Part shown: positions 2,221 to 30,979 of the stretch, piece by piece
Position numbering within the stretch: position 1 is the first letter of the stretch
Layout: each line of letters begins with the position of its first letter
Source of the DNA: Mesotoga infera
GTDB taxonomy: Bacteria > Thermotogota > Thermotogae > Petrotogales > Kosmotogaceae
Direction of reading: 5' to 3'
NCBI RefSeq assembly: GCF_900157305.1
Contig: NZ_LS974202.1
Coordinates: forward strand, 1,488,001 to 1,552,000
DNA: 64,000 nucleotides
Position numbers and translations under genes: made by a program
Notes under the pieces: generated by a model
What the model was told of the DNA's origin: nothing
What the model saw: only the letters and a program-made list of their open reading frames with translations
Database searches by the model: none

Positions 2221-3897
2221 TCATATTCCGACTTTTCCTCTGGTTAGCCACTTCACCAGAAGGTTTCCTGCTATAACGATCAACAAAAGAAGTGTGGCAA
2301 AGGCGGCCGATATCTGCACATATCCGGCCTCCTGCATTTCGAACACGGCGACTCCAATAGTTACCGTCCTGGGTCCCCAGAGGAGTATGGACATCGTAAG
2401 TTCCCTCAGGGTCGGCATGAAAATCAAAAACCAGCCGGCCACCAGGCCAGGTCTTATCAGAGGCACGACTATATCTTTCAGCGAAGTGAACCAGCTGCCG
2501 CCCGAGATCCTGGCCGCCTCTTCAAGGGAGGTGTGTATCTGCTCCAGAGAGGCCGACGTCGTTCTCACGGCAAAGGCCACGTAATGGGCAACGTAGGCGA
2601 AGAGGAGTATCCAGAAGGTGTTGTAAAGATTCACCCCGTAACTGCCAGACCAGGCCAGTATCATAGCTATCGCCACGACCGTGCCCGGTATCGTGTAAGG
2701 TATCTGCGCAATAGTTTCAAGGGCCTTGCGGCCTCTTATTTTCGTTTTAACGCTTATATAAGCGATCAAGGAACCCAGGACCATACAGATCGTCGCGGCC
2801 GAAATGGCCAGCAGGAAGCTGTTCTTCAGGGCGTCTTTGGTTAGCCCGTACTCGAAGAGAATGTACCTGTAATTCCTGAAGGTGAGGTTCTCCCAAGTTA
2901 TATCGGCACCCCAGGCATCCAGCAGCGATGTGAGACCTATTGAAAAGAAGGGCATGATGACGGTTATAAAGACTACCACTAAGGCGACGATAAGGCAGGG
3001 TATCTTCCAGGCACCCAGATCGAGAGTCTTCGGTCTCATGCTCTTTCCGGATATGAGGGTGTACTGTTTCTTCTTGAGGTAGAAATTGTTTATGAGCAAG
3101 GCTCCGACCGAGATCACCATCAACATTATCGACAGGGCCGAAGCTGTGGCTATTCCGTTGAAACCACCGCTGTGCATGTACGAATAGATCATCGTCGTAA
3201 GAACGAAGACCCTCCCCTGCATTCCCACAAGCGCCGGAATGCCGAAGTTGGCTATACTCGAGGCGAAGACAAGGAGCGCTCCGCCCGCTATGCTTGGAGC
3301 TACCAGTGGAAGCGTGATATCGCGCATTATCTTCATCGTCTTCGATCCGCACGTTCTTGCAGCCTCCTCGAGCGTCGGATCCATCCTCTCGAGAGCCCCG
3401 GCCACGGTTATGAACACGAAGGGATAAAGGTATAGCGTCATCACCCATATGAGGCCCGGCATGGTGTTGACGTTGAAGACGTACCCTTCTATGCCGAAGA
3501 TCGACTGGATAAGTCTGTTTATATAACCGTTGCGCCTGTTGAGCAGCTGAGACCAGGCGATCGCTCCTATGAAAGGCGGAATCATATAGGGTAATATGAA
3601 CAGTGTTCTGAAGAGCTTCGCGAAAGGGAGGTTGGTTCTAGTCACCAGCCAGGCCAGAGGCGCTCCAAGCAGAACCGAAAAAAGCGATGTGAAGAGACCT
3701 AACTTTAGACTGTTGAAGAGAGCCGTATAATTTCTCTTCGCCTGAAAGACGGTAGCGTAGTTTTGAAGCGTGTAGGCCCCGTCGAATTTGAAGCTGTTCA
3801 AAAACAGCAGCGTCAGGGGAAAAACCACGAGAATGGCTATCACCACGAAAGTCCCGCCCAGAATGAAGGGATCGGCCTTGATCTTTCTCTGCAACAA
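2221..3897 (-). CDS. ABC transporter permease, two fused permease halves (FbpB/AfuB/ThiP type)
   Basis: About 558 residues with about 12 predicted membrane helices. Each half carries an EAA loop that contacts the ATPase: EEAARTCGSKTMKIMRDITLP in the first and EEAARISGGSWFTSLKDIVVP in the second. This fused arrangement is typical of ferric-iron, thiamine and AfuB hexose-phosphate permeases. The frame can be opened at a GTG at 3906, but that codon abuts the AGGAG ribosome site; the TTG at 3897 sits 8 bases after it and is preferred. The gene lies between the binding-protein gene and the ATPase gene and completes the importer. Confidence 0.9.
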   Translation of the reverse strand: MLQRKIKADPFILGGTFVVIAILVVFPLTLLFLNSFKFDGAYTLQNYATVFQAKRNYTALFNSLKLGLFTSLFSVLLGAPLAWLVTRTNLPFAKLFRTLFILPYMIPPFIGAIAWSQLLNRRNGYINRLIQSIFGIEGYVFNVNTMPGLIWVMTLYLYPFVFITVAGALERMDPTLEEAARTCGSKTMKIMRDITLPLVAPSIAGGALLVFASSIANFGIPALVGMQGRVFVLTTMIYSYMHSGGFNGIATASALSIMLMVISVGALLINNFYLKKKQYTLISGKSMRPKTLDLGAWKIPCLIVALVVVFITVIMPFFSIGLTSLLDAWGADITWENLTFRNYRYILFEYGLTKDALKNSFLLAISAATICMVLGSLIAYISVKTKIRGRKALETIAQIPYTIPGTVVAIAMILAWSGSYGVNLYNTFWILLFAYVAHYVAFAVRTTSASLEQIHTSLEEAARISGGSWFTSLKDIVVPLIRPGLVAGWFLIFMPTLRELTMSILLWGPRTVTIGVAVFEMQEAGYVQISAAFATLLLLIVIAGNLLVKWLTRGKVGI

Positions 3898-3956
3898 GAG
3901 TACCACTCCTCAGGATGAAAGTAAGGCCCGGCCGTGAGAGGCCGGGCCGAAAACCG

Positions 3957-4937
3957 TCAGAACAGCATGATATCGGAGAAGTTCGCATTGATCTCGGCGA
4001 GCCCTTCTTCGATATATTTCCAGTCAATTTCCATCGCCTGTCCCAGTATCTCGCCGGCGGGCGGCGTATTGGCCGGGGGATTAACGTCGCTCCGGACCGG
4101 AACCAGTGAACCAAGCTCGACCTGTGCCTTCTGGCCATCGATCGAGAGGATGTAGTTGACGAACTTCATAGCGGCCTCCATCTTCTGCGATGACTTCAAA
4201 ATCGCAATGGGGCTCGGGATGGCTATCGTGCCGTCGGTGGGGTAGATGATATCGATCGGGCTACCTTTGACATTGAGGTCGCGCGCAATGTAGTCGAGAG
4301 TCATGCCTATCGGGAACTCTCCGGCCGCTACCTTCTGCGCGACATCGCTGTTCCCTCTGACAACTACTGCCTCATTCTTTCTTAGATCCTCGAAGTATTT
4401 CCAGCCATATTTCTTGGCCAGCGCGCCGACCGCGGCGACGGCAGCGCCCGAGTACTCGGGGTTTGGCACTACGTAGTTGTCGTACCACTTTTCATCCGTC
4501 AGTTCCTTCCAGGATTTGGGAGCCGTTTCCGGCGTGAGCGCCTTGGTGTTGTAGGCTATAACCATGTTGATAAGCCTTCCAGCGTAGTAATAGCCTTCCG
4601 GATCCTTGAAGTTCTCCGGCAGTGCCGAGGCCTCCTCGGGGTATATCTGCGCCAGAAGACCCTGTTTCTTCAGAGTTTCATAGTAAGAGAACTCTGCGAC
4701 CCAGAGAACATCGGCCTGTATATTGCCGGACTGCACTTCGGCGGCGAGCTTGGTCTGGATGGTTCCGGTACCGGATCTGAAAACTTCCAGCTCGATACCG
4801 GGGTTTGCAGCCATGAAAGCATCGGCGATAGCCGTCATAATTTCCGTTGGAACCGAGGTGTAAAGCATTATCTTCTCGGTTCCAAAAAGCACCGCGCTAC
4901 AGATCAGTAGCAGAATTACAATTACGTACTTTCTCAT
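3957..4937 (-). CDS. Extracellular solute-binding protein (AfuA/FbpA-like)
   Basis: 326 residues with an N-terminal signal peptide (MRKYVIVILLLICSAVLFG). The fold is a type II periplasmic binding protein, with an early SGTGTIQTKL segment and internal FPIGMTLDYIARD and SLVPVRSD segments typical of family 1 / ferric-binding-like proteins. I do not see the paired Tyr-Tyr iron ligands of classical FbpA. AfuA of Actinobacillus, first annotated as iron-binding, binds hexose and heptulose phosphates (known from the literature). With an RpiR regulator next door, a phosphorylated ligand is the better guess here, but this is inference. The ribosome site AGGAGGTTGTCTA precedes the ATG well. Confidence 0.85.
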   Translation of the reverse strand: MRKYVIVILLLICSAVLFGTEKIMLYTSVPTEIMTAIADAFMAANPGIELEVFRSGTGTIQTKLAAEVQSGNIQADVLWVAEFSYYETLKKQGLLAQIYPEEASALPENFKDPEGYYYAGRLINMVIAYNTKALTPETAPKSWKELTDEKWYDNYVVPNPEYSGAAVAAVGALAKKYGWKYFEDLRKNEAVVVRGNSDVAQKVAAGEFPIGMTLDYIARDLNVKGSPIDIIYPTDGTIAIPSPIAILKSSQKMEAAMKFVNYILSIDGQKAQVELGSLVPVRSDVNPPANTPPAGEILGQAMEIDWKYIEEGLAEINANFSDIMLF

Positions 4938-4966
4938 TAGACAACCTCCTGCACCGGCCCGGGAAA

Positions 4967-5827
4967 CTATTCCTTCCCGTTAAGCCCGAAAATTTTAGGG
5001 ATCTCATCCAGTTTTTTAAGCGCTTTAAGTTTCTCTTCGTCCCTCTCGGCAAGATAGAGAATAAGTACGTTGAGTATGGCCATCGGAACGACGAGCGAGT
5101 TCAATAAGGGAACCGGCCCTCTATTGGCGACCAGTGTTACATCCGATCTCAAAGCCAGTTCCGAAACGGTGCTGTGAGTGAGTGCGATAGTCGGGATTGC
5201 CCTGGCCCTTGCGTAATCGAAGGCCCTGAGTATGTCCTGTGAGCAGCGAAAGAAGCCTATACCGAAAAGCACGTCCCTGTCGTTCATGAGAAGAAGCGTC
5301 TCGTAGAAGCTTTTCCCGCCGCCGGTGACGACCCGGGTATCGATTTGCATCCGTCTGAACCTGAATTCGAGGAACTTGCACAGCGATTCCGATACGCCCT
5401 GACCGGTCACGAAGACCCTTTTTGCGCCTTCGATAAGATCGACGGCACGATAAAATTCATCCGACGAAACCCTGGAAATGCCCTCCTTAAGGTTCTCGAC
5501 CTCGGCCGTCAACAGTCGCTCCAGAGAAGTTTCGCCGGACTTTATCTTTCTCACCGTCGCCGACATCTTCTCGGCCGGAGTCAACCTCTCCTTTATCAGA
5601 TCCTGGCTGTGCTGTCTGAGATCTGTGAAGCTTTCGTATCCGATCGATCTGGCGAACCTTATTACAGTCGTTTCACTGACTCCCAGCCTCGCCCCCAGCT
5701 CTTTGGGAGAGACGAAGGCGATGTTTTCCCAGTTTTCGAGGATACTGTCGGCGATGAGCTTTTGGGACTTAGTGAGGGTTGGATAGACCTCCCTTACCCT
5801 ATCGAGAATAGTCATGTCTCTTTCCAA
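4967..5827 (-). CDS. RpiR/MurR-family transcriptional regulator with SIS domain
   Basis: About 287 residues. The N-terminal HTH_6 domain shows LTKSQKLIADSILENW and the helix-turn-helix LGARLGVSETTVIRFARSIGY. The C-terminal half is a SIS sugar-phosphate-binding domain (VFVTGQGVSESLCKFLEFRF and later VLFGIGFFRCSQDILRAFDYA). The start is a TTG at 5827, 8 bases after GGGAGG; the ATG at 5815 is the alternative, and upstream in-frame codons overlap the previous gene. Members sense phosphosugars and control their catabolism. It sits 16 bases after the mutase-like gene and before the binding-protein gene, so it probably controls this operon through the repeats at 8227-8290. Confidence 0.9.
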   Translation of the reverse strand: MERDMTILDRVREVYPTLTKSQKLIADSILENWENIAFVSPKELGARLGVSETTVIRFARSIGYESFTDLRQHSQDLIKERLTPAEKMSATVRKIKSGETSLERLLTAEVENLKEGISRVSSDEFYRAVDLIEGAKRVFVTGQGVSESLCKFLEFRFRRMQIDTRVVTGGGKSFYETLLLMNDRDVLFGIGFFRCSQDILRAFDYARARAIPTIALTHSTVSELALRSDVTLVANRGPVPLLNSLVVPMAILNVLILYLAERDEEKLKALKKLDEIPKIFGLNGKE

Positions 5828-5843
5828 GAGCCCTTCCTCCCGT

Positions 5844-7373
5844 TTATAGCCCGTAATAGCATTCGCCTTTACCTTCCACGAGTGCATCATACACCGGCTT
5901 TGTTTTCCCTGTGTAATCTTTGCTTCTGTCCAGTGCGTAACCCCTTCCAACGGCTGTTACTACTTCGGTCTTTCCGAGTTCTTCGCGGTATTTCTCGAGT
6001 AAAGCGACGGCGCTTTTCGGCGGCGCGCTACGGCCGTCGAGTATCAGGTGTGAAAAGATTCTCTCTACATTCCTTGATTTTGCCACCTTCGAGATCGACA
6101 GAATCTCGTTTATATTCCCGTGAGAGCTGGCCTCCGAAAGCATACCTATAAGATGAAGGGAGGCTCCGTCTTTTATATCGTTCAACACCCTTTCGAGAAC
6201 CGGGTTGTCTTCGAAGCGGCGTTCTATGACTCTCATCAACCTGAGTTCGTCCTGTTCGATCAACCTTCCTGCCCCGATGGTAAGATGGCCTGTCTCGGAG
6301 TTGCCGCTCCTTCCGTGGGGAAGTCCAACGTATTCCTCGCTGGCCATAAGCCTTGTGAATGGGAACTTCCTCTTCAGGAAATCGAGGTTCGGAGTGGAGG
6401 CGGCCTTGAGAGGATTGATAGAGGGATCGTCGTTGCCCTCCCCCCAGCCGTCCAGTATGACCAGAACCACGCCGCTTGATACGGGAATTCTCTTGAGAAG
6501 AGAGCGGCCTGTCATCTCCTCGGGCTTGCGGATGTTCATCAGCGAGAGTATCGTCGGTGCCACATCGACCAGAGACCCACCGTTGATTATGTCATCTTTT
6601 CCGAGCATGGGATTGACCACTACGAAGGGGACCGGCGCCGTCGTGTGTGAGACAGAAGGTGTGTCTTCATCGGTAAAGCCTCTTTCCATTAGGCCGTGAT
6701 CGGCTGTGACTATCAGTGTGCGTCCGAGAGATTTGGCCTGACTGTAGATCGCGCTCAGCGCTTTATCGATCTCTTCTGCGGCCTTCACCTTCAATTCCAT
6801 TTCCTGGAGATGGCCTATCACGTCGCCGGCCGGGAAGTTGATTATGATGAAATCGTACCTGTCCATCGCCTTCACCACTGCCTTGCCGATCTCGGCACTC
6901 TTCATCTCCGGGTGATTCTTGAAGTCCTTCCAGCTCGGTATGATTTCGGCCACCTGACCGGGGTAGAGACGACTGTGCCGGCCGTTGAAGAAGAAGGTAA
7001 CGTGAGACTCCTTTTCAGACTCCGTCACCGCGAGCTGCTTCTTACCCTCACCGCTGAGAATTTCGCCCAGTGTCCTTTCCGGCCTGACCGGCGAAACTAT
7101 TGGCTCTATCTTCGAGAACTTTTCATGGTACTCTACCAGCGGCACGAAACGGAGCCTCGAAAAGTCGCGTACCGGAAAGGCCGCGAAACGCTTTTCCACG
7201 AAACTTTCCATCAGCTGGACTTCTCTCTCCCCCCTTCGGCAGCAGAAGATAACCGTATCGCCGTCCTGAATTCTTCCCGGCCTTTTATCTCCGTCACACG
7301 CAACTAGAGGCGGGATCCAGTAATCGTTTAGACCTTTATCGTATTGCCTTAGTATCGCTTCGCGGAGATTCAC
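5844..7373 (-). CDS. Circularly permuted cofactor-independent phosphoglycerate mutase-like enzyme
   Basis: 509 residues, the usual GpmI length, but the halves are swapped. Residues 1-296 match the usual C-terminal half: Lys121 in SEKESHVTFFFNG, Asp184/His188 in PAGDVIGH, Asp225-His226 in TADHG, His243 in SHTTAPVPF, then VAPTILSLM and MTGRSL. Residues 301-509 match the usual N-terminal half: Asp308 in VILDGWG, catalytic Ser359 in GNSETGH, His418, LDGR at 445-448, GR at 476-477 and LDR at 481-483. The break falls in the loop that normally joins these segments. All metal ligands and the serine are present. One substrate-contact Asp of GpmI (in LDGRD) is Ser449, so the substrate may differ. GTG start; the ribosome site AGGTGA overlaps the stop of the upstream gene. 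Confidence 0.92.
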   Translation of the reverse strand: MNLREAILRQYDKGLNDYWIPPLVACDGDKRPGRIQDGDTVIFCCRRGEREVQLMESFVEKRFAAFPVRDFSRLRFVPLVEYHEKFSKIEPIVSPVRPERTLGEILSGEGKKQLAVTESEKESHVTFFFNGRHSRLYPGQVAEIIPSWKDFKNHPEMKSAEIGKAVVKAMDRYDFIIINFPAGDVIGHLQEMELKVKAAEEIDKALSAIYSQAKSLGRTLIVTADHGLMERGFTDEDTPSVSHTTAPVPFVVVNPMLGKDDIINGGSLVDVAPTILSLMNIRKPEEMTGRSLLKRIPVSSGVVLVILDGWGEGNDDPSINPLKAASTPNLDFLKRKFPFTRLMASEEYVGLPHGRSGNSETGHLTIGAGRLIEQDELRLMRVIERRFEDNPVLERVLNDIKDGASLHLIGMLSEASSHGNINEILSISKVAKSRNVERIFSHLILDGRSAPPKSAVALLEKYREELGKTEVVTAVGRGYALDRSKDYTGKTKPVYDALVEGKGECYYGL

Positions 7374-26639: not shown

Positions 26640-27200
26640 TGGTGTCCAAATTAGATCCGAATCACACTTCGTCCAAGAGCGTGGACCCGTCATTGGAGAG
26701 AGCGGAACCAGAGGTGAGAGGGTAGAGGTGTGAGACGAGAAGAGCGGGATCCCAGGTCGGAGCCCGGGATGACAGCCCCCTAACGTCATTCTGGCATGTT
26801 CCTAGCCAGAATCACGTTCTTCCTTCTTCCCGTCATTCTGAGCTTGACTCAGAATCACGGTTTTGGTTTTCTAAGGAGTGGATCCCGGGTCGGAGCCCGG
26901 GATGACCCTGAATAGGAGCATTTCAGGGCAGGCTCTCCCCTAACGTCATTCTGGCATGTTCCTAGCCAGAATCCCGCCTTTTCCTCCTTCCCGTCATGCT
27001 GGACCCGATCCGGCATCCCGGTCTTTGCTCCCTTCACGTCATCCTGACAGGCTCCTGGTCAGGATCCCGGTCTTCGCGAAAAACGGGACAGACGTCAGGA
27101 GAATCGTCAGTCCCCATTTTCGCGGTTTTTCCTCCTTCCCGTCATGCCGGACCTGATCCGACATCTTGCTTTTACCCACTACTCACTACCCATCACGCTT
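26640..27200. repeat. Mosaic of dispersed palindromic repeats (region 2)
   Basis: No gene is seen. The segment about 26698-26750 recurs almost exactly at about 31226-31280. Hairpins of the shared architecture are GTCATTCTGGC...GCCAGAATC (twice, near 26785 and 26945), GTCATTCTGAG...CTCAGAATC near 26832, a GGATCCCGGG/CCCGGGAT pair near 26880-26905, GTCATGCTGGAC..GATCCGGCATC near 26992 and GTCATCCTGAC...GTCAGGATC near 27037. The segment 27037-27160 is a diverged copy of the 120-base unit repeated twice at 31.5-31.85 kb, including its CGAAAAACGGGACAGAC / GTCAGTCCC inverted arms. Confidence 0.8.
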
Positions 27201-27322: not shown

Positions 27323-27916
27323 GTGCTTACGAAAGCTCTGTTCGAAGAGAGTTTTGGTCGCGAGCGCAAGAAGCACAGACCTGTGCTTTACTCCCCGGCC
27401 TTGCTGGTGATCGATCTTCAAAATTACTTCAGCGACAGAAAATCACGGGCCTATCTGGAAGGAATCGAAACGGTTGTGGCCAATACGGGCAAACTCATAG
27501 AAGGATTCGTTAGCTGCCGCTTACTGGTCGCTTCGACTGTCCACAGAGGCGGCTCGAAGATGATGGAGGAGTGGTGGGGCAATACCGTCGCCGATAACTG
27601 GGCCGTTCCTCAGTTCAGTGATTTTCCCCTCTTCTACAAGGATAGTTATGATGCTTTCCACGGAACAGGGCTTGACGCCTTTCTAAAAGATAGGGGGGTG
27701 AACCAGCTCGTGATTTGCGGCGTAAGAACGCACCTGTGCTGCGAGACCACGGCGAGATCGGCCTTTGTAAAGGACTACAGAACGGTGATGATAGAAGATG
27801 CCCTGTGCGATAAAGATGTCGATCAGCATGTCCGATCTCTTAAAAACCTCGCAAGCGGCTTTTCAGCCGTGTCAAACACCCTGGAGATTCTTGAATTGCT
27901 GAGGAGGCGTTTATGA
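27323..27916 (+). CDS. Isochorismatase/nicotinamidase-like cysteine hydrolase
   Basis: 197 residues. The catalytic triad is visible: Asp in LLVIDLQNYF, Lys in LFYKDSYDAFHGTG and Cys in GVRTHLCCETTARSAF, with the preceding residues matching the usual cis-peptide region. Substrates in this family include nicotinamide, isochorismate, carbamoylsarcosine and biuret, and cannot be told apart here. It overlaps the FAD oxidoreductase gene by 4 bases (ATGA), and the radical SAM gene follows, so the three should act together. Confidence 0.88.
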   Translation: MLTKALFEESFGRERKKHRPVLYSPALLVIDLQNYFSDRKSRAYLEGIETVVANTGKLIEGFVSCRLLVASTVHRGGSKMMEEWWGNTVADNWAVPQFSDFPLFYKDSYDAFHGTGLDAFLKDRGVNQLVICGVRTHLCCETTARSAFVKDYRTVMIEDALCDKDVDQHVRSLKNLASGFSAVSNTLEILELLRRRL

Positions 27917-28704
27917 TCAAGACGGTGGGAGTCGTCGGAGCAGGACCGGCCGGTGTCGCGGCCGCGATAATGCTCAAAAGATACGGAATCGAAGTGCTGC
28001 TTTTCGAACGTAGAACCGTAGGCGGTCTCCTCAACAACGCCTGGCGTGTAGAAAACTTCCCTCCGCTCGAACCGTGCACCGGAGAGGAGCTCTGTCGAAA
28101 GCTGGAAGATCGCCTAACCGACAACGACATCGCGATAATTAATGAAGAGGTCACGGCCATTCGCGATAGAATCATCGTTACCCGCAGGGCCCGATACAAG
28201 GTGGATTACGCTCTGGTGGCCACCGGTACCGCACCGAAGAGGCTTCCCACGCTCGAGACCTGCTCAAGGGTGGTTTACGAATACAGGGATATCCCCCCGG
28301 GAACTGAAGTAATCGCGATCTACGGTGCCGGAGATATGGCCTTCGACGGTGCCGTCAGAGCAAGCCTGAGAGGGAGTAGAACATTGCTCTTCTCCAGAAG
28401 CGAGACATTGAGGGCAATAGAGCCGTTGAAAGCATCGGCGGAGAAGGCGGGAGTCGAGTTGCACCGCGCCGAATCTATCCTGCGGGTTGAACCGGACGAA
28501 GCATTATTGAAGATAACGACCTCGCTGAACGTCTATTCGGCCGACGCCTTACTTATCTGTATTGGCAGAGAATCACTGATTCCAAGGATTGATTCGGACA
28601 GATGCGAGATAATCGGCGATGCCAGGGGCGAAATCTACAGACAGGCCTCCATAGCTATCGGAGACGGAATAAAAAGCGCCATGAAAATAGCACTGGAAGG
28701 GTGA
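27913..28704 (+). CDS. FAD-dependent oxidoreductase, thioredoxin reductase-like but without CxxC
   Basis: 263 residues, shorter than thioredoxin reductases (~310). The FAD site GAGPAGVAAAIMLKRYGI and E-rich strand end (LLFERR) are at the N-terminus, followed by GGLLNNAWRVENFPP, typical of this family. ATGTAPK precedes a second nucleotide-binding motif, IYGAGDMAFDGAV (Ala and Asp replace usual Gly positions). The C-terminal FAD contact is IAIGDGI. No redox-active Cys pair is present, so it probably reduces or oxidises a partner or small molecule directly. Middle gene of a three-gene operon. Confidence 0.85.
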   Translation: MIKTVGVVGAGPAGVAAAIMLKRYGIEVLLFERRTVGGLLNNAWRVENFPPLEPCTGEELCRKLEDRLTDNDIAIINEEVTAIRDRIIVTRRARYKVDYALVATGTAPKRLPTLETCSRVVYEYRDIPPGTEVIAIYGAGDMAFDGAVRASLRGSRTLLFSRSETLRAIEPLKASAEKAGVELHRAESILRVEPDEALLKITTSLNVYSADALLICIGRESLIPRIDSDRCEIIGDARGEIYRQASIAIGDGIKSAMKIALEG

Positions 28705-28709
28705 TGATA

Positions 28710-29660
28710 ATGAAGATAATAGAGAGTTTCGGAAAGGAAGAATTGGCTATCGTGCATACGGGTGAGACTTCACGGGCTTCGTGGGTGGAGTTCGTCGAAT
28801 CTCTGCAGCCACCGCTTCCACGCGAAGAGAAGTGGGTTCTGATCGTATCCACGATGGATGGCTGCCCTGTTCAGTGCGCCTTCTGCGATGCCGGTGGAGC
28901 GTACAGGAGAAACCTCGGCAGTGAAGAGATACTGGAACAGATAGACTACATGGTGAGCCGTAGATACGGGTCAACCGTTAACGTGAAGAAATTCAAGATC
29001 CAGTTCGCGAGAATCGGAGAGCCTGCACTGAACCCTTCGGTTCTGGAAGCGCTCGAAATGCTTCCCCGGAAGTACGACGCGCCGGGCCTTCTCCCCTCGA
29101 TCAGCACTATCGCTCCGGCAAGCTCGAAAGGCTTTTTTGAAAAGCTGTACACGATAAAAGAGAGGCTTTACAGGGGAAGGTTTCAACTCCAGTTCTCGAT
29201 ACACTCCACCGACATATTCCAGCGCGACTGGCTGATTCCCGTAAGAAAATGGAGTTTCGAAGAGATAGCCGATTATGGATCTATCTTCTGCGGTCCGACC
29301 GACAGGAAGATAACTTTGAATTTCGCTCTTTCTACCCGGTCTCTGGTCGATAGCGACATAATTTCTAGATTTTTCGACCCGGGCAAGTTTCTCGTGAAGA
29401 TAACGCCTGTGAATCCGACGTACCGCTCCCATGAAAAGGAAATCAAGACGGCGGTTGAAGACGACGGCTCGTTACTTTTGCACGAGAGCTTCGTGGATGG
29501 TCTGCGCGCGAGGGGCTTCGAGGTCATAGTGAGCGTGGGTGAGCCCGAAGAAAACCGTATAGGCAGCAACTGCGGGCTGTACATTCGCAGGCACATCGAC
29601 AGAATGAAGAAAAGCCCCGAAATGTATTCCTTCGTAAAATCGAAGGGTGGTATTGAATGA
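28710..29660 (+). CDS. RlmN/Cfr-like radical SAM protein lacking one catalytic cysteine
   Basis: 316 residues. The cluster motif is CPVQCAFC (Cx3Cx2C) in the segment STMDGCPVQCAFCDAGG, parallel to the RlmN segment. Further RlmN-like parts are QLQFSIHST and, near the end, RIGSNCGLYIRR, where Cys lines up with the methyl-carrying C-terminal Cys of RlmN. The second catalytic Cys of RlmN, seven residues before the first cluster Cys, is Ile here. So rRNA A2503 methylation by the usual route is doubtful. The ATG at 28710 is 8 bases after GGAAGGG; an earlier ATG is too close. Partner genes are a cysteine hydrolase and an FAD oxidoreductase. Confidence 0.82.
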   Translation: MKIIESFGKEELAIVHTGETSRASWVEFVESLQPPLPREEKWVLIVSTMDGCPVQCAFCDAGGAYRRNLGSEEILEQIDYMVSRRYGSTVNVKKFKIQFARIGEPALNPSVLEALEMLPRKYDAPGLLPSISTIAPASSKGFFEKLYTIKERLYRGRFQLQFSIHSTDIFQRDWLIPVRKWSFEEIADYGSIFCGPTDRKITLNFALSTRSLVDSDIISRFFDPGKFLVKITPVNPTYRSHEKEIKTAVEDDGSLLLHESFVDGLRARGFEVIVSVGEPEENRIGSNCGLYIRRHIDRMKKSPEMYSFVKSKGGIE

Positions 29661-29740: not shown

Positions 29741-30979
29741 TCACCGGCTGGATCTGAAGGCCTCGGCAAGCTCTTTCATGTACGGATCGATGTGACTGAA
29801 GTAAAGTTTCAGTCCGCTGCAGAGGTAATTAAGCCCGGCCTCTCCTTCGGGTGTTCTTACGAATCTGTTTTTCGGACATTCTCCGTGACAGGCAAACAAG
29901 TATTCGCATCTTTGACAGTAATCGGGAAGCGTCGCTGCCTTGGAAATACCGAATACCGTCTGCGACGTAGAGTTCACCATATCGATCAACCTCTTGTTCA
30001 TTATGTTTCCCAGCAAGTGTTCGGGATATACGAAGTGATCGCACGAGTAGATACTTCCGTCGGCCTCTATCGCCAGCGCGCGTCCGCAGGTTTCGGCGAA
30101 GATGCACAGCGAAGACTGCATACCAAGCCACTGGCCGAGGGCGCACTCGAAAAGAAAGACAAAGACGCGGCCGATATCGTTTCTGTACCAAAGGTCAAAG
30201 ACACCGTTCAAGAAGCGCCCGTAATCCTGTGGAACCACCGACCAGTCTGTTGCGATCGACCCAGCTTTTGACGGCAAGGCCTCGTTCGTACCGATTATAG
30301 GCATCGAATCCTCGGCCATGAAAGTTGTGGGCCTCTCCTTGAATATCTTTGGCTCGACCAGCGGAATGAACTGTATTCTCGTCGAACCTACCGAATCTCT
30401 CAGAAAGCGATACACCTCACCGGGGAATTTCGCGTTGATCCTGTTGACAACCGTGAGCGTGTTGAAATCTATACCGTATCTATGAAGAAGTTTTGTGGCG
30501 TTGAAGACTCTCTTGAAAGTGGGCCCCCCATCTTTCGAGACACGATATACGTTGTGGAGCCGCTCGGGACCGTCGATGCTTATGCCGACCAGAAAGTTGT
30601 ACTCTTTGAGAAACTCGCACCATTTCTCGTTCAGCAAGGTTCCGTTGGTTTGCAGGTCGTTGGCTATTTTTTTACCCGGAGGGCAGTACAGCCTTTCGTA
30701 TTCTATTACCTTTTTGAAGAAATCTATCCCGAGTAAAGTGGGCTCTCCGCCCTGCCAGGTGAAGACAATCTCGGAAACGTTCTGAGAGTTTATGTACTCG
30801 TAGATGAACCTCTCCAGTACTTCTTCGCTGATAACGTTCCTGCTGTTGATCAATTCCTGTTTGTGAAGGTAGAAGCAGTAAGCGCAATCTAGGTTGCACA
30901 GCGCCCCGGTTGGCTTGACCATAACATGAAAGGCCTGTACTTTGTGCTGATTATTTCTCTTGAGCGGTTCCTGTCCCAT
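29741..30979 (-). CDS. Anaerobic sulfatase-maturase-type radical SAM/SPASM protein
   Basis: 412 residues. Radical SAM motif CNLDCAYC with KPTGALCNLDC as in anSME; GGEPTLLG and DLQTNGTLLN follow. The C-terminal SPASM region carries CGRALAIEADGSIYSCDHFVYPE and CQRCEYLFACHGECPKNR, matching auxiliary [4Fe-4S] clusters. Known anSMEs convert Cys or Ser in sulfatases to formylglycine; close relatives modify other peptides. No sulfatase is in this window, so the target is elsewhere or is not a sulfatase. The ribosome site GGAGGT is clear. It converges with the preceding RlmN-like gene. Confidence 0.88.
   Translation of the reverse strand: MGQEPLKRNNQHKVQAFHVMVKPTGALCNLDCAYCFYLHKQELINSRNVISEEVLERFIYEYINSQNVSEIVFTWQGGEPTLLGIDFFKKVIEYERLYCPPGKKIANDLQTNGTLLNEKWCEFLKEYNFLVGISIDGPERLHNVYRVSKDGGPTFKRVFNATKLLHRYGIDFNTLTVVNRINAKFPGEVYRFLRDSVGSTRIQFIPLVEPKIFKERPTTFMAEDSMPIIGTNEALPSKAGSIATDWSVVPQDYGRFLNGVFDLWYRNDIGRVFVFLFECALGQWLGMQSSLCIFAETCGRALAIEADGSIYSCDHFVYPEHLLGNIMNKRLIDMVNSTSQTVFGISKAATLPDYCQRCEYLFACHGECPKNRFVRTPEGEAGLNYLCSGLKLYFSHIDPYMKELAEAFRSSR

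Follow-up and report, generated by a model that had tools for sequence, protein, structure and literature searches.

Class A radical S-adenosylmethionine (SAM) methylases use two conserved cysteines for methyl transfer (PMC9692996). The class is defined by these two residues, and its characterised members act on RNA. Its described proteins closest to the locus treated here are RlmN, the C2-methyltransferase of 23S ribosomal RNA (rRNA) A2503 and transfer RNA (tRNA) A37, and Cfr, the C8-methyltransferase of 23S rRNA A2503. In RlmN, Cys355 is methylated from SAM and converted to a methylene radical that attacks adenine C2, and Cys118, as general base, allows the adduct to come apart; in the C118A variant the reaction halts at a covalent adduct (PMC9692996). 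For in vitro work on RlmN, flavodoxin and an NADPH reductase were purified (PMC5130265). In a 64,000-nucleotide stretch of the Mesotoga infera genome (contig NZ_LS974202.1, positions 1,488,001 to 1,552,000; hereafter the window), we describe a three-gene cassette whose third gene encodes an RlmN/Cfr-fold radical SAM protein, labelled P0001, that retains the equivalent of Cys355 and carries isoleucine at the position of Cys118. We propose, with a probability of roughly 0.5, that the gene 3 family does not act on rRNA or tRNA and would be a single-cysteine, class-A-like enzyme whose substrate is small and probably resembles a nucleotide, and in which base and electrons come from other sources. 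The relevant features of gene 3, in window coordinates, are:

28710..29660, + strand: gene 3, Cys118-less RlmN/Cfr-fold radical SAM protein P0001, 316 residues (open reading frame, models, alignment)
28842..28844, + strand: codon ATC of Ile45, at the position of E. coli RlmN Cys118 (alignment, conservation)
28863..28886, + strand: cluster motif Cys52-x3-Cys56-x2-Cys59 (sequence; invariant in 99 of 99 family sequences)
29571..29573, + strand: codon of the tail cysteine Cys288, within GSNCG, equivalent to the methyl acceptor Cys355 of RlmN (alignment)

Profile matches and the predicted structure agree that P0001 consists of one canonical radical SAM domain and has the RlmN/Cfr fold. The ten top-ranking PDB matches of the AlphaFold prediction (mean predicted local distance difference test score, pLDDT, of 86; predicted template modelling score 0.85) are RlmN and Cfr chains, and the GEP motif and the RlmN-type CG(Q/L) setting of the tail are retained in the family. 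The initial annotation had aligned the protein with RlmN through the cluster motif and the C-terminal NCG cysteine, and both parts of that alignment hold, with Cys288 present in all 99 family sequences. Scores against the RlmN/Cfr models are nevertheless low, at about 19 to 50 bits and far under the respective cut-offs: 50.1 bits against 290 for TIGR00048 (RlmN), 34.7 bits for the rSAM_Cfr model (cut-off 550) and 40.2 bits for the CfrAB model (cut-off 530). The same genome (2.97 Mb, one contig) encodes a separate, full RlmN that scores 376 bits and possesses both cysteines (FCISSQVGC ... AAACGQL), so P0001 is not the RlmN of this organism. This canonical rlmN, whose presence elsewhere in the genome had been put forward as a check, lies between genes resembling rsmB and rsgA, as named by eye.

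The loss of the Cys118 equivalent, claimed from the window alone, is borne out by every comparison made. Ile45 stands seven residues before the first cluster cysteine, the spacing from SxxxGC to CxxxCxxC is free of gaps, and Ile45 therefore falls exactly on residue 118; in the same alignment, solved C118A RlmN chains show alanine there. Isoleucine occupies this position in 19 of 19 Thermotogota homologues. Across 99 family sequences from many phyla the residue is isoleucine (84), methionine (7), leucine (4), valine (2) or threonine (2), and never cysteine. A nearby cysteine taking over the missing role, which the initial annotation had named as grounds for rejecting its view, was sought in the same 99 sequences and ruled out: Cys52, Cys56, Cys59 and Cys288 are the sole cysteines common to all of them, so another cysteine cannot fill the role of Cys118. 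A pseudogene or sequencing error is likewise ruled out by the invariance of the key residues.

P0001 also differs from RlmN in what precedes the cluster. Only 51 residues lie ahead of its first cluster cysteine, compared with 109 in the RlmN of the same genome, and the TIGR00048 match begins at profile position 99; P0001 has therefore lost the N-terminal region for RNA recognition. In a maximum-likelihood tree rooted on RlmN/Cfr, a group of phage proteins that has lost the RNA region and kept Cys118 (group A) branches before a monophyletic Cys118-less clade (ultrafast bootstrap, UFBoot, 100), which comprises the chromosomal cassette family, a Bacteroides-phage type and a further phage group, B; within it, the chromosomal cassette and group B each have a UFBoot of 99. 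On the sampled sequences, the N-terminal region thus appears to have been lost first, and Cys118 once, later. Residues that are invariant throughout the Cys118-less clade and differ in RlmN include Arg101 (Gly in RlmN), Lys200 (Arg in RlmN) and Lys230 (Asn in RlmN), and Lys96, Gln98 and Gln159 do not vary within the cassette family. These new invariant residues map on or beside barrel strands in the P0001 prediction. The lost RNA region, the new charged residues and the separation of the Cys118-less clade from RlmN/Cfr, all read from sequence, support the suggestion made at the outset that this protein has a different substrate or chemistry.

A profile of phage group B scores 140 bits with P0001 and 73 bits with the RlmN of the M. 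infera genome. Group B proteins have glycine at the Cys118 position, and their core of about 260 residues ends before the tail. At 73 of 83 loci the tail cysteine is instead encoded downstream on the same strand, mostly within 25 nucleotides, by a separate open reading frame (ORF) of about 40 residues with the pattern ATxxE(I/V)...AACGQ (loci L133 and L138-L220, phage and viral contigs). This split form is possibly the most unusual thing observed here. In Vibrio phage D479 the AACGQM segment occurs twice in tandem within the tail ORF (L139:5626-5907). The Bacteroides-phage type (L132, L305-L325) is the phage group nearest to the chromosomal cassette, with threonine at the Cys118 position in 22 of 22 sequences and its tail, TCGN, in cis; shared neighbour genes were not found for it. 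Searching viral sequences with the cassette alignment yielded no matches.

The commonest neighbours of phage groups A and B (L142-L220, L225-L304) are genes for nicotinamide phosphoribosyltransferase (NAMPT) and for a nicotinamide mononucleotide (NMN)-adenylyltransferase/Nudix protein, named from the annotation of a Vibrio phage relative, from the annotation of database matches and by eye. Among records that contain NAMPT, this gene and the radical SAM gene are no more than 3 kb apart in 16 of 26 for group A (1.96 expected, P about 1e-13) and in 13 of 20 for group B (2.14 expected, P about 1e-9). The underlying model treats placement as random and records as independent; since several records are related these P values are too small, although gene order differs among the close pairs. 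Because these phage relatives adjoin NAMPT and NadM genes, which act in the salvage of nicotinamide adenine dinucleotide (NAD), there is a hint that the substrate of the family is nucleotide-like.

On the M. infera chromosome the company of the gene is different, and consists of two genes immediately upstream:

27323..27916, + strand: gene 1, isochorismatase-family cysteine hydrolase, 197 residues (Pfam PF00857, 7e-33)
27913..28704, + strand: gene 2, thioredoxin-reductase-fold flavin adenine dinucleotide (FAD)/NAD(P)H oxidoreductase, 263 residues (TIGR01292, fold)

Genes 1 and 2 overlap by 4 nucleotides and a gap of 5 separates genes 2 and 3; the initial annotation had described the three as co-transcribed. 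Gene 1 keeps the catalytic residues Asp31, Lys106 and Cys139, as do 73 of 73 cassette homologues. Its nearest solved relatives are EntB, cysteine hydrolases and RutB, and it scores under every equivalog cut-off, including 33 bits against a cut-off of 174 for the nicotinamidase model PRK11609. Set against nicotinamidase, which combines an Asp-x-His...His metal site with an Asp-Lys-Cys triad, it has the triad and one histidine (H74), and the metal-site aspartate was not evident by inspection. Gene 2 reaches 85 bits with TIGR01292, far under the cut-off; its AlphaFold prediction (pLDDT 94) has 5mh4 as its best PDB match, with a template modelling score (TM) of 0.86. The nucleotide-binding glycine motifs are conserved in gene 2, and the redox CxxC dithiol is missing, with Glu123-Tyr-Arg-Asp126 in its place, so this protein cannot work as a thioredoxin reductase. 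Upstream of the cassette, an intergenic stretch at window positions 26680-27170 carries repeated elements, for example GTCATTCTGGCATGTTCCTAGCCAGAATC, which occurs twice. Downstream, at 29741-30979 on the minus strand, is a convergent second radical SAM gene whose product reads, by eye, like an anaerobic sulfatase-maturase/SPASM protein.

That the three genes travel together, a further check proposed in the initial annotation, holds widely. A search of 61 Thermotogota genomes retrieved 18 loci outside the window, and 18 of the 61 genomes have a full-length relative, either additional to P0001's own or equal to it; the flavoprotein gene is adjacent at all 18 loci, and a recognisable hydrolase completes the trio at 17, which puts the cassette in 17-18 of the 61 genomes. 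A scan of a larger collection gave 414 relatives of P0001, and neighbourhoods were counted for the best 80, which span more than 20 bacterial and archaeal lineages, Thermoplasmata and methanogens among them. Directly upstream of the radical SAM gene is the flavoprotein gene at 67 of the 71 loci that could be assessed, in most cases overlapping it by 4 nucleotides, the hydrolase gene is upstream at 53 of 65, and both are present at 52 of 65; the flavoprotein is thus the tighter partner. Beyond these two genes the flanks vary, with no recurring partner and no RNA-gene neighbourhood at the collection loci, in keeping with the earlier remark that the gene is not placed beside RNA genes; the lack of conserved flanking genes indicates that the module is self-contained. 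An MttB-family methyltransferase gene precedes four of the chromosomal cassettes (L063, at 2695-6411, L067, L071 and L110), and L063 also holds a corrinoid protein gene and a homocysteine S-methyltransferase-like gene.

The distribution of the cassette is patchy, and loss is visible within the genus. In one genome of the same genus (G004) the radical SAM gene is reduced to a C-terminal remnant (L050:8971-9234), with no hydrolase or flavoprotein gene nearby, and an intact copy was not seen in three further genomes of the genus. The family is also rare and patchy in the phylum of a Methanospirillaceae metagenome-assembled genome (MAG), where it was found in 1 of 295 genomes. Of 20 cassette genomes tested, 12 show no RlmN above the cut-off, among them 8 of the 9 archaeal MAGs (MAGs may be incomplete), and the family is therefore not tied to RlmN. 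A literature search of incomplete coverage returned no description of the family, the three-gene operon, the split phage form or a link between phage RlmN-like and NAD genes.

Taken together, these observations can be assembled into a working mechanism. With Cys288 and the iron-sulphur/SAM core retained, the enzyme probably still methylates Cys288. By analogy with RlmN, one SAM would supply this methyl group and a second would generate the methylene radical. The target of this radical would be an unsaturated carbon in a small anionic metabolite, probably nucleotide-like and bound by Lys96, Gln98, Arg101, Gln159, Gln161, Lys200 and Lys230. The proton abstraction performed by Cys118 in RlmN could fall to one of the new invariant residues or to the substrate itself, the electron balance would come from the dedicated FAD/NAD(P)H partner, and the cysteine hydrolase may prepare the substrate or process the product. 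Several points weigh against this proposal. The known mechanism predicts that an enzyme without Cys118 should stall with its product; the pocket position of the new polar residues is predicted from the alignment; and NAMPT and NadM genes, sought beside chromosomal cassettes, were found at 0 of 80 loci, so that the NAD linkage is confined to phage relatives, among them group A, which keeps Cys118. In addition, the hydrolase is missing at about a dozen loci and both partners at a few (L066, L102 and L107), which means that the partners are not strictly required.

A more tentative and rather unlikely extension would assign the whole Cys118-less clade a new, single-cysteine form of class A radical chemistry whose substrates are small molecules related to NAD or adenylate. 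The thioether adduct, a dead end in C118A RlmN, would in phages form on the detachable cysteine microprotein and be either the real product, a peptide-nucleotide conjugate, or an intermediate resolved in trans, and release in the chromosomal form would be coupled to the flavoprotein.

The alternative that survives best, though we consider it doubtful, is that the RlmN scaffold now supports a non-methylating reaction, in which Cys288 is a hydrogen-atom donor or a ligand and the 5'-deoxyadenosyl radical takes a substrate hydrogen directly, as in most radical SAM enzymes. A conserved cysteine does act as a hydrogen donor in other radical SAM enzymes, and the new charged residues suggest a remodelled pocket. 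Loss of Cys118 moreover removes the step special to class A methylases (PMC9692996). However, the RlmN-type tail setting and the GEP motif have been kept, and the presence of the same cysteine on a separate small protein in the phage sister group is easier to reconcile with a mobile carrier than with a fixed ligand. Less probable still is that P0001 remains an RNA or nucleic-acid methylase that employs another residue as base and has a different RNA target. Every characterised RlmN/Cfr-fold protein acts on RNA adenosine and several basic residues are invariant, but the N-terminal part that recognises RNA is missing, the partners of the gene are metabolic enzymes and not RNA genes, and an ordinary rlmN is present alongside it in M. 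infera and in 8 of the 20 other genomes tested. An RlmN paralogue that is inactive or in decay and persists by chance would account for the remnant in G004 and the three genomes lacking an intact copy, but is highly improbable given that the cluster cysteines, Cys288 and dozens more residues are invariant across bacteria and archaea and that the operon is preserved.

A conserved bacterial and archaeal family that lacks one of the two cysteines and has fixed partners has either a second way of achieving release or a different reaction built on this scaffold. Such natural Cys118-less variants make the role of Cys118 testable. The phage sister group, with its detached cysteine tail and NAD-salvage neighbourhood, offers a simple system of two proteins in which to study the same chemistry, and may connect it with the conflict between phage and host over NAD.

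A comparison of the cassette with known systems shows both shared and divergent elements in each of its proteins. Gene 1 shares its fold and Asp-Lys-Cys triad with isochorismatase-family cysteine hydrolases such as EntB and RutB, except that EntB has glycine in place of the catalytic cysteine kept in gene 1 as Cys139. Gene 2 has the fold and the FAD and NAD(P)H motifs of thioredoxin reductase, but is shorter and lacks the CxxC. Phage group B, to which phrog_24834 may belong, shares with P0001 the absence of Cys118, the Arg101/Lys200/Lys230 pattern and the clade, and differs in its shorter core, detached tail cysteine, glycine at the Cys118 position and lack of a hydrolase or flavoprotein partner. 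Cfr resembles P0001 in fold (9p0p, TM 0.59) and cluster motif, but requires Cys105, the Cys118 equivalent, where P0001 has Ile45; model scores of 35-40 bits against cut-offs of 530-550 and a separate tree branch also divide them. RlmN shares the fold, CxxxCxxC, GEP and the tail cysteine in CG(Q/L), whereas P0001 has no Cys118 and no RNA-recognition region, bears new charged residues, is encoded in an operon with a hydrolase and a flavoprotein, and scores 50 bits where 290 are needed. With one invariant non-cluster cysteine in 99 sequences, P0001 falls outside the two-cysteine definition of class A (PMC9692996), but it uses the class A scaffold and its mode of action may be related.
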